Source: Acidobacteriota bacterium (lineage in GTDB: Bacteria > Acidobacteriota > Terriglobia > Terriglobales > Acidobacteriaceae). Taken from it: a stretch of DNA of 36,623 nt. The stretch's first letter is position 1, and each line of letters starts with the position of its first letter. Positions 17,946 to 28,958 of the stretch are shown here, piece by piece. The notes beneath the pieces were generated by a model. That model worked only from the letters and a program-made list of their open reading frames with translations. It ran no database searches and was not told the DNA's origin. The stretch lies in assembly GCA_003225455.1 (NCBI GenBank), contig QIAB01000036.1, forward strand, positions 1,764-38,386, read 5' to 3'. The position numbers were made by a program, and so were the translations under genes.

Positions 17946-18063
17946 TGAATGCCGGGGCGGTGGCGGCACAGATTTTTTACCGTTTCCTCTGTCTCAGGCT
18001 CGTTCGAAGCGGAACGGTGGCAGAGCGGGCCACGCCATGTGCCCCGGCTCCATTAAGGGCGCT

Positions 18064-26460: not shown

Positions 26461-26903
26461 CAAGCCAGCATCTCCTGAATTCGAGATGCAATTCTGGCGG
26501 CTGCTTTTTTCTCGGGGCAGACAATCAGAATGGTATCGTCCCCCGCGATGGTGCCTAGCGTCTCCGGCCAGTCTTCGGCATCCAGAGCCGCGGCCACGGG
26601 CTGGGCGCTGCCGACTGTAGTTTTAATTACGAGCAGGTTCTGCGCAGGGCGGACCTCTAACACGAACTCACGCACGAGCCGCGAGACTGGCGGTAGGGGC
26701 GGCTCAGCGGCGGTCTCGTCCTGCGGACGGGCATAGCCAGCGCCGGTCTTGACCAACTGGAGATCGTGAACATCCCTTGACAGAGTGGCCTGCCCAACGC
26801 GGAAGCCGCGTTTGCCGAGCGCGCGCTGAAGATCCTCCTGACTGGCCACCGGGCCGCGCTCCAGCACTTCGAGAATGGCTTTCTGTCGCAATGCCTTGCT
26901 CAT
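26460..26903 (-). CDS. argR: Arginine repressor ArgR
   Basis: Arginine-dependent transcription regulator, 147 aa. The N-terminal winged helix shows SQEDLQRALGKRGFRVGQ and the recognition helix ATLSRDVHDLQLVK. The C-terminal oligomerisation and arginine-binding domain shows GTIAGDDTILIVCP. A Pro/Ala-rich linker at about 64-74 joins them. It is the first gene of the operon it should control, giving autoregulation. No Shine-Dalgarno sits before ATG 26903, because the operator palindrome runs right up to the start codon. Confidence 0.97.
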   Translation of the reverse strand: MSKALRQKAILEVLERGPVASQEDLQRALGKRGFRVGQATLSRDVHDLQLVKTGAGYARPQDETAAEPPLPPVSRLVREFVLEVRPAQNLLVIKTTVGSAQPVAAALDAEDWPETLGTIAGDDTILIVCPEKKAAARIASRIQEMLA

Positions 26904-26916
26904 GAATGAATATTCA
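26903..26916. promoter_or_regulatory. ARG box, proximal (ArgR operator)
   Basis: TGAATGAATATTCA fits TGAATnnnnATTCA exactly, the core of the ArgR operator known from other bacteria. It ends on the first base of the argR start codon. Its centre is 20 bases from that of the second box, about two helical turns, so one ArgR hexamer could bind both. Confidence 0.85.
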
Positions 26917-26922
26917 CTTACA

Positions 26923-26936
26923 TGAATAAGTATTCA
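26923..26936. promoter_or_regulatory. ARG box, distal (ArgR operator)
   Basis: TGAATAAGTATTCA, again TGAATnnnnATTCA. It covers the predicted transcription start and touches the -10 hexamer, so bound repressor would block RNA polymerase. Confidence 0.87.
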
Positions 26937-26963
26937 TAATAAAAGCCTGCGGACTTATGTCAA
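26936..26963 (-). promoter_or_regulatory. Promoter of the arginine operon
   Basis: On the minus strand TTGACA (26958-26963) and TATTAT (26936-26941) are separated by 16 bases. The start would fall near 26929, inside the distal ARG box, leaving a leader of about 26 bases. Confidence 0.8.
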
Positions 26964-27007: not shown

Positions 27008-28450
27008 CTACCAGGTTCCGCCAGACTGGCAAAGCGCATGGCGCGCAACCGGCGGTCCTGGCCTGGCTTCCGAGAAAAACAACTTATGCAGACGCTGCAC
27101 AGATTCCTCTGCCCGCGATTCATCCACAAGAAAGCTGATGCTGCGCTCCGAAGCACCCTGACAGATCATGCGCACGTCGATATCAGCGATAGCGCGAAAT
27201 ACCTGGCTGGCGACTTCCGGTCGCCGACGAATCTTCTCGCCCACTAAGCAGACGAGAGCTTTGTGATTCTCCCAGCGCACGCTGGCGAGGCCTTTCAGCT
27301 CTTCGGCAATCGCGGGCAGAGAGGCGATTGAGGTGACGAGCAGCGACAAGCTGCCGCGAGAAGCGGATAGCAAATCCAGCGTGTGCTGGTGATTTTCGAA
27401 GACTTCACAAACTTCGCGCAATAACTCGGGCGCGAGCCAGCGAAGCGGCTCAACATCAACTACGGCAACGCCACGCTTGACGCTGAGCGCCTTTACGCGT
27501 CCTTCATCGCGCGAATGCCCGCAAATTTCCGTGCCGGCTCCCCCTGGGTTCCGTGAGTTTAGAACCCAAACCGGAATATTTTGACGCCTTGCCGGCAACA
27601 GGGTGGCGGGATGAAGGACTTTCGCGCCGAAGTATGCCAATTCCGCCGCCTCCTCAAAGCTCATCCTGGAAACGCGCTGCGCTTCAGAACACAGATCCGG
27701 ATCGGTGGTCATCACGCCATCAACATCAGTCCAGATCTCGATTTTCTTCGCGTGAAGACCGGCACCCACGATGGCTGCACTGAAGTCGGAGCCACCGCGT
27801 CCGAGCGTAGTCGGAATCCCATCAAGCGTAGAACCAGCAAAGCCGCCGAGAACAGGAATACGGTCCGCCTGAAGCAGTGGAGCAAGGAGAATTTGCAGTC
27901 GCCGATTAGTCTCATCGCACAGTGGAGTCGCCCTGGTGTGCGCAGCGTCGGTTATGATGCACTCTTTCGCATCAACCCAAACTGCTTCGAGCCCGTTCCG
28001 CACAAGAGCTGCGCGCACAAGTTTGCTGGAAAAATGCTCTCCCATGCTGAGCAGGTGATCCTGCGCACGCAAGCTGAAGTCACGCGCTGCGGAAATGCTC
28101 CTGAGTAATGCGACAGCAGCACGAAAATCGTGCACCGAATCCTTGAAGAAGAGATCGCCTTCATCCGAGCCCAGAAGCTCTCCGGCAATGCGGAGATGCC
28201 GTTCCTGAATGTCTCTTACGATGGCAAGCGCAGTTTCCAGCTTCCCTTCGGCGGCAGTTCGTCCGGCCGCGAAAAGCTGGTCAGTGACCGCGGCCAGCGC
28301 GCTGACGACCGCTACCTGGCGATGTCGCAGTCGTCCTTTCACGATTTGGCACAGACGGCGAATCGCAGCAGCGTCCTCAACGGAAGTGCCGCCGAACTTC
28401 ATAACTACGCATTGCCGTTCTCCTGCGCTCCCACCTAACAATTCGCTCAT
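27008..28450 (-). CDS. lysC: Aspartate kinase
   Basis: Phosphorylates aspartate, opening the path to lysine, threonine, methionine and diaminopimelate. About 480 aa, monofunctional. The kinase domain begins VVMKFGGTSVEDAAAI near residue 16 and has GFAGSTLDGIPTTLGRGGSDFSAA and EIWTDVDGVMTTDP. Two C-terminal ACT-like segments follow (HTLDLLSASRGSLSLLV; RAIADIDVRMICQGASERSISF), the usual site for feedback by lysine or threonine. The ATG at 28450 follows AGGAGAACGTG. No homoserine dehydrogenase domain is fused. The gene lies behind an intrinsic terminator and a short-ORF leader, so transcription attenuation is likely. It lies about 100 bases upstream of argR. Confidence 0.96.
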   Translation of the reverse strand: MSELLGGSAGERQCVVMKFGGTSVEDAAAIRRLCQIVKGRLRHRQVAVVSALAAVTDQLFAAGRTAAEGKLETALAIVRDIQERHLRIAGELLGSDEGDLFFKDSVHDFRAAVALLRSISAARDFSLRAQDHLLSMGEHFSSKLVRAALVRNGLEAVWVDAKECIITDAAHTRATPLCDETNRRLQILLAPLLQADRIPVLGGFAGSTLDGIPTTLGRGGSDFSAAIVGAGLHAKKIEIWTDVDGVMTTDPDLCSEAQRVSRMSFEEAAELAYFGAKVLHPATLLPARRQNIPVWVLNSRNPGGAGTEICGHSRDEGRVKALSVKRGVAVVDVEPLRWLAPELLREVCEVFENHQHTLDLLSASRGSLSLLVTSIASLPAIAEELKGLASVRWENHKALVCLVGEKIRRRPEVASQVFRAIADIDVRMICQGASERSISFLVDESRAEESVQRLHKLFFSEARPGPPVARHALCQSGGTW

Positions 28451-28471
28451 CACGTTCTCCTCGCGAGCAAT

Positions 28472-28507
28472 AAAAAACCCACCTGCCACTTGCTTCTGGC
28501 GGTGGGT
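28472..28507 (-). terminator. Intrinsic terminator in the lysC leader (attenuator)
   Basis: Minus-strand hairpin. ACCCACC (28507-28501) pairs with GGTGGGT (28483-28477), and GCCA (28500-28497) pairs with TGGC (28488-28485), with a single bulged A and an eight-base loop. A run of six T follows. It lies 22 bases before the lysC ATG, so it should stop transcription just ahead of the gene unless prevented. Confidence 0.85.
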
Positions 28508-28539
28508 CTTGTCGGCCGGCTAAACTTGTCTTTCTCAGC

Positions 28540-28635
28540 TCACCAGACGCCCTCCCCCAGAAGACACGTAATTCGTGTCGCCATACCGGCTGTAATTCGC
28601 TTCGTCTTCCGGGAAGTGGGATTCATGGTTGACAT
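28540..28635 (-). CDS. Putative lysC leader peptide, Thr-rich
   Basis: Frame of 31 codons from ATG 28635 (a second in-frame ATG is at 28626) to TGA at 28542-28540. Its sequence includes NPTSRKTKRITAG and MATRITCLLGEGVW, with six Thr, two Ile and two Lys, and the triplet Arg-Ile-Thr twice. This recalls threonine-operon leader peptides. It lies between the 56-aa ORF, five bases after its stop, and the terminator. No strong ribosome site is present, so it would depend on coupling. A leader role is inference. Confidence 0.45.
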   Translation of the reverse strand: MSTMNPTSRKTKRITAGMATRITCLLGEGVW

Positions 28636-28639
28636 GAAA

Positions 28640-28810
28640 TCAGTTGTTTTGTCCTGAGCGGAGCCGGGGTTCCGGACTTTCTACACAAAACTCTTCGAAG
28701 AACTGCACCAGGCGATCAAGCAGCCTACGCCGGCCGCCAATCATATGCAACCCGCTCTCGTGCTGATGTTCTTCGAGTATCTTATTCAAGCTGGTTTCCA
28801 ATTCACTCAT
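28640..28810 (-). CDS. Small hypothetical protein, 56 aa, upstream of lysC
   Basis: ATG 28810 follows GAGGAG at a spacing of seven bases, a good ribosome site. The 56-residue product is amphipathic and charged (MSELETSLNKILEEHQHES; IGGRRRLLDRLVQFFEEFC) and looks mostly helical, possibly a coiled coil with a basic turn. I recognise no family. It precedes the Thr-rich ORF and terminator, so it is probably co-transcribed with lysC or sits in the attenuated transcript. CCTCAGA at 28869-28875 on the transcribed strand can pair with TCTGAGG overlapping its ribosome site. Confidence 0.6.
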   Translation of the reverse strand: MSELETSLNKILEEHQHESGLHMIGGRRRLLDRLVQFFEEFCVESPEPRLRSGQNN

Positions 28811-28819
28811 AAAAATACT

Positions 28820-28875
28820 CCTCAGATTGTCTTTGATTGTGGGATTGCCGGCAGACGTCGCCAGTAATTCTGAGG
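28820..28875 (-). promoter_or_regulatory. Inverted repeat able to mask the small-ORF ribosome site
   Basis: On the minus strand CCTCAGA (28875-28869) is complementary to TCTGAGG (28826-28820), which overlaps the GAGGAG ribosome site of the 56-aa ORF. The loop is 42 bases. Seven base pairs at this distance could be chance. Confidence 0.35.
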
Positions 28876-28958
28876 TCTTTCCATTAGTAGGCTACCAATC
28901 GGCCGTTGGAAAGAGAAATTTGAAATTCTGATGGACAGGATCAGGAAATTCGATGCGC

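Follow-up and report, generated by a model that had tools for sequence, protein, structure and literature searches.

The enterobacterial thr operon attenuator (thrL, thrABC) combines a Thr-rich leader peptide with 1:2, 2:3 and 3:4 pairing logic upstream of aspartokinase activity. Poly-cysteine leader ORFs of mycobacteria are reportedly treated in a 2020 paper by Canestrari. The thr leader of E. coli uses eight ACC codons (PMC1183508). Mycobacterial poly-cysteine leader ORFs precede cys operons, and no conserved terminator was found there (PMC1262725). A genome-wide survey associated hardly any of its predicted acidobacterial attenuators with a function (PMC2965389). The window analyzed here, a stretch of 36,623 nucleotides from an acidobacterial genome, contains upstream of lysC the sequence-level features of a trp/thr-type attenuator: pathway-matched control codons, a terminator and mutually exclusive pairings. 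On computational evidence this leader is very probably a ribosome-mediated transcription attenuator that controls lysC and senses charged tRNA-Thr, with tRNA-Ile probably a second input. When the leader region (28400-28850) was compared with Rfam, no match was observed at E values up to 5, the enterobacterial Thr leader included, and by sequence it is not a member of that known family.

Layout and conservation of the lysC leader

On the minus strand, a short ORF (28540-28635) is followed by a hairpin and T-run (28506-28472) and then by the lysC ATG (28450). The features are as follows.

28540..28626, minus strand: leader peptide ORF from the conserved start, 28 codons, MNPTSRKTKRITAGMATRITCLLGEGVW and stop, 5 Thr; frame open in the aspartokinase leaders examined
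28604..28613, minus strand: strand 1 (CCCGGAAGAC), predicted anti-antiterminator, pairing with strand 2
28567..28602, minus strand: control region, lying after strand 1 and before strand 2 (Lys-Arg-Ile-Thr-Ala-Gly-Met-Ala-Thr-Arg-Ile-Thr), where a stalled ribosome is predicted to favour the antiterminator
28563..28579, minus strand: small hairpin GACACG-AATTA-CGTGTC, which shares positions with the beginning of strand 2
28550..28565, minus strand: strand 2 (GTCTTCTGGGGGAGGG), partner of either strand 1 or strand 3
28493..28506, minus strand: strand 3 (CCCACCGCCAGAAG), 5' arm of the terminator and also partner of strand 2
28472..28488, minus strand: strand 4 (TGGCAGGTGGG) with the T-run, the remainder of the intrinsic terminator
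27008..28450, minus strand: lysC, aspartate kinase (480 aa; NCBIfam and Pfam), the regulated gene in the proposal
26903..26963, minus strand: separate promoter-like site and two tandem ARG-box-like repeats in front of argR, conserved there in L002, L030, L033 and L034

The ORF at 28540-28635 encodes MSTMNPTSRKTKRITAGMATRITCLLGEGVW, 31 codons with 6 Thr, and is indeed the Thr-rich frame reported in the initial annotation of this DNA. The upstream in-frame ATG at 28635 gives this length; conservation points to the second ATG (28626) as the likely start codon. A clear Shine-Dalgarno sequence is absent upstream of the ORF. The Thr content of the window leader alone is modestly unusual (5/28; binomial tail 0.0075 against a 4.5% background), and it is conservation, not Thr content alone, that places the leader clearly above chance.

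Relatives were chosen by similarity of the lysC protein (at least 55% identity) and not by the leader. The leader was present in all six such relatives that have an upstream region (L002, L003, L005, L030, L033 and L034); L002 and L032 are one locus, and L004 is cut off within lysC. The initial annotation had made its proposal depend on whether relatives keep the frame with its Thr codons and also the terminator; all three are conserved. The leader peptides roughly follow the pattern M-x(4)-QK-x-x-RIT-(Ser/Thr-rich)-TRIT-CLL. Changes in the length of the control region are multiples of 3, and the +1 change of L002 sits after this region. A search of 299 genomes with an exact pattern recovered only two others, the pattern being too strict.

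Several other elements were observed nearby. Between a LysR gene and the leader lies a 56-aa ORF (28640-28810, minus strand), which shows 60-75% identity in related loci, has no match in Pfam or NCBIfam and would share a transcript with the leader, ahead of it. In most lysC loci, a motif like ATC-N(2-3)-AATTT-N(3)-ATTT (28916-28932, minus strand) is located downstream of the LysR-type gene and ahead of either the leader or the 56-aa ORF, and it may be a binding site of the LysR-type regulator. Elsewhere in the window, 17960-18038 (plus strand) matches the Rfam family CyVA-1 at 60.8 bits.

Alternative pairings and the proposed switch

The terminator stem (28506-28478) and its T-run (28477-28472) have a predicted energy of -22.3 kcal/mol compared with -8.6 in shuffles (z -5.6), and the end of the T-run lies 22 positions upstream of the lysC ATG, in agreement with the strong intrinsic terminator first noted there. 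This terminator, between leader and first gene, is conserved in relatives. The main predicted antiterminator is formed by CTTCTGGGGGAGGG (28563-28550) with 28506-28493, giving 12/14 pairs. A different pairing, TCTGGTG with CGCCAGA, had originally been proposed for this role; it is present in the window as a minor pairing but is not kept in a second lysC lineage (L003, L005 and L062). Strand 1, CCCGGAAGAC (28613-28604), pairs with GTCTTCTGGG of strand 2. The earlier scheme of thr/trp-like attenuation was thus right in kind, and attenuation is the best explanation of the locus, but the scheme used TCTGGTG rather than CTTCTGGGGGAGGG and lacked strand 1, which completes a 1:2, 2:3, 3:4 design.

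The small hairpin GACACG/CGTGTC within the leader frame, also noted at first, is present; close lysC leaders retain it, and that of L002 has one extra base in the loop. Within 28568-28599 (minus strand) there are two copies of the octamer CGAATTAC, which hardly vary at any codon position among close lysC leaders. Of these copies, the second lies inside the small hairpin, and the first is explained by no pairing partner.

Under the proposed mechanism, a ribosome would translate the Thr-rich ORF as RNA polymerase moves along the leader. If threonine is plentiful, this ribosome would get to the stop codon and cover strand 2, leaving strand 3 to pair with strand 4, and transcription would end before lysC. 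A shortage of Thr-tRNA would make the ribosome stall at the Thr codons that separate strand 1 from strand 2, covering strand 1, so that strands 2 and 3 would pair, the terminator would be blocked and lysC would be transcribed. Computation shows the elements, their conservation, the alternative pairings and the codons that fit the pathway in paralogous leaders; we infer that termination and stalling actually occur, which amino acid is sensed and what exactly Ile contributes.

The computed pairings are consistent with this design, the antiterminator and a terminator-protecting 1:2 pairing being mutually exclusive. Across 25 divergent leaders, cognate strands outpaired swapped ones in all three pairings, 1:2, 2:3 and 3:4 (permutation p = 5e-5 in every case, an optimistic value because the permutation ignores relatedness), and the 1:2 and 2:3 pairings were far stronger than with shuffled strands. 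In L089, the core sequence of strands 1, 2 and 3 is altered together, and joint changes of this kind in single leaders are persuasive evidence of coevolution at the sequence level. Folding of five lysC leaders with a ribosome masked in the middle Thr stretch sequestered strand 3 with a probability of 0.70-0.93. With the ribosome masked at the stop codon the values were 0.14-0.54, being 0.14-0.28 in L005, L033 and L003 and 0.47-0.54 in the window and L034. The effect of ribosome position on the fold in silico is therefore clear in L003, L005 and L033 and weaker in the window and L034. In the window leader, strand 3 is 78% sequestered with no ribosome, the untranslated leader being predicted to favour the antiterminator, and still about 47% with a ribosome at the stop codon; this residual sequestration indicates a predicted off state that is weaker than in several relatives.

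Related leaders and the amino acid probably sensed

A model trained on eight lysC leaders alone (R1) matched 139/398 genomes of the family (E <= 0.01) and, in a 297-genome sample of the phylum, nothing outside the family. Among 52 fetched loci, the downstream gene was an aspartokinase in 31, a rhodanese-domain gene in 9 and a nitrite/sulfite reductase-type gene in 9, and one each lay before a sulfate-binding protein, ilvC and ilvD. The leaders that R1 found before sulfur genes carry poly-Cys ORFs on the shared scaffold, and those before ilvC and ilvD (L106 and L107) are Ile/Val/Leu-rich. Since Thr, Cys and Ile/Val/Leu leaders precede the corresponding genes, leader codons match the downstream pathway. 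A broader scaffold model (R2) matched 133/300 family genomes, matches that are less independent than those of R1 because its training used leaders already chosen. It added Thr-type leaders before homoserine dehydrogenase genes, Val/Ile-rich ones before ilvB, and poly-Cys leaders before cysK, cysD, siroheme synthesis and a MoaD/ThiS-like protein; some matches precede unassigned genes, and one weak match (L138) comes from another family of the same order.

The same genome has, just outside the window, a poly-Cys leader, MNSSCQICACCSCCCMRVSGAGRLLI (G000:C18:39906-40052; L094:3407-3553, minus strand), that is built on this scaffold and has a strong terminator ahead of a nitrite/sulfite reductase-type gene; it is a probable cysteine attenuator, judged by its sequence. 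The genome's third match (L123), which precedes ilvC, shows the scaffold and was set aside, a convincing Ile/Val/Leu leader ORF being absent. In several Cys-type paralogues a promoter-like site lies so close to the leader ORF that the ORF would be nearly leaderless. A weak scaffold match (E 0.009) before proB, L146 (G021:C42:24830-24922), has a Pro-containing leader ORF, MNIMMIFPNLSLLPCPPARSVGLPWKRSAETK, and is a possible proline attenuator. Downstream of two Cys-rich scaffold leaders (L133 and L166) are genes for a product that seems to resemble outer-membrane proteins of the FadL type, so that these leaders may be linked to the uptake of sulfur compounds.

It is likely that one scaffold has been reused with swapped control codons to form a multi-amino-acid network, apparently confined mainly to one acidobacterial family. 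In this network the Thr class, with Ile or Met, would serve lysC and hom; the Cys class would serve genes of assimilatory sulfur metabolism (sir-like reductase, siroheme synthesis, cysD, cysK, rhodanese and sulfate transport); and further leaders would serve ilvB, ilvC and ilvD through Ile/Val/Leu codons and perhaps proB through Pro.

Codon composition bears on which signal is read at lysC. Thr makes up 20% of codons in 29 aspartokinase leaders compared with 6.5% in 19 Cys-type leaders and 4.5% in the background, Cys 18% in the Cys-type compared with 2.7% in the aspartokinase leaders, and p values for such comparisons are indicative only, the leader sequences being related. Codon choice in the leaders is biased as well, to ACA for Thr (59% versus 17% in genes) and to TGT for Cys (71% versus 25%). 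Among 15 aligned leaders of 31 codons, there are no stops in frame 0, whereas all 15 have stops in frame 1 and 3 have them in frame 2. Substitutions in these leaders have no third-position bias, with 17, 22 and 21 variable sites by codon position, so that dN/dS-type selection on amino acids cannot be claimed. The kept frame, the in-frame indels, the codon choice and above all the pathway-matched codons are evidence that the leader is translated. A divergent lysC leader, L132 (G003:C164:2779-2871), is Leu/Ile/Val-rich and not Thr-rich, an exception to the codon rule. Sensing of cysteine through the conserved Cys codon of Thr-Cys-Leu-Leu was considered and rejected, this codon being lost in L002, L075 and L078.

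Isoleucine as the signal, whether alone or together with threonine as in the thr leader of E. coli, is rather unlikely. Ile is enriched in aspartokinase leaders (8.8% versus 1.3%), and certain aspartokinase or hom leaders (L089, L134 and L143) are Ile-rich; most close lysC leaders, however, have 4-8 Thr against 1-5 Ile, and their core stretch is rich in Thr and Ser.

The initial annotation had not mentioned that lysC leads an arginine gene cluster. The order lysC-argR-argC-argB-argD, with further arginine genes, the three Arg codons of the leader, and the invariant CGA of both Arg codons of the Arg-Ile-Thr repeats in the 15 aligned leaders could indicate that arginine is sensed. This is very improbable. 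Arg is not enriched (8.2% in aspartokinase leaders, 8.3% in the Cys type and 7.9% in the background), and although lysC precedes argR in L002, L030, L033 and L034, it is the last gene before an opposite-strand gene in L003 and L005, where the leader is present nevertheless. Moreover, argR has a strong promoter-like site of its own, TTGACA-16-TATTAT (26963-26936, minus strand), and TGAAT-N4-ATTCA repeats resembling ARG boxes at 26936-26923 and 26916-26903 (minus strand), which suggests that the arg genes do not depend on the attenuator. From the sequence, the leader probably does not serve arginine.

A ligand-binding riboswitch or protein-binding leader in which the ORF is incidental could explain the very high nucleotide conservation, which extends to the third positions of the Arg-Ile-Thr repeats and to the small hairpin, but is hardly credible here. 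In addition to the lack of an Rfam match at permissive E values, the whole window yielded no riboswitch or known leader at the Rfam gathering threshold, covariance models of the lysine riboswitch (L-box) and T-box did not match the window, and the paralogous leader loci likewise gave no riboswitch or known leader in Rfam. The paralogues keep the 1-2-3-4 scaffold and swap the interval between strands 1 and 2 for pathway-matched Cys or Ile/Val/Leu codons, a change not expected of a ligand pocket. It is highly unlikely that the element is just a constitutive upstream terminator or transcript end without a part in regulation, because a plain terminator would need neither the coevolving competing pairings nor the open control region with pathway-matched codons that is kept.

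Significance and comparison with known systems

The genome has three aspartokinase genes, the lysC of the window among them. Full-text literature searches, in which coverage of the relevant papers was incomplete, returned no earlier report of the leader. The initial view of a single lysC attenuator has to be widened in one respect: the leader belongs to an attenuator family with different control codons. One acidobacterial attenuator now has a likely function. The leader set presents one RNA scaffold with varied codons, and because the scaffold is the same while the codons differ, the signal of each leader can be read from its peptide. These leaders would provide an example from nature of RNA switches with swapped codons and would let amino-acid regulation be predicted in abundant, hard-to-grow soil bacteria.

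The L-box and T-box can likewise precede amino-acid genes such as lysC, but involve no translated control region. The Cys-type paralogues resemble the mycobacterial cys leaders in having a run of Cys codons before sulfur genes and differ from them in their strong intrinsic terminator and competing strands. With the ilv, leu and trp attenuators of proteobacteria and actinobacteria, the acidobacterial leaders share a leader peptide, control codons and an intrinsic terminator; they occur in another phylum, and leaders for several amino acids share one RNA scaffold. With thrL, the lysC leader shares a Thr-rich peptide, the 1:2, 2:3, 3:4 logic and aspartokinase activity downstream. In contrast to thrL, it controls a monofunctional lysC, its Thr codons are mostly ACA rather than ACC, and its scaffold is common to leaders for other amino acids.
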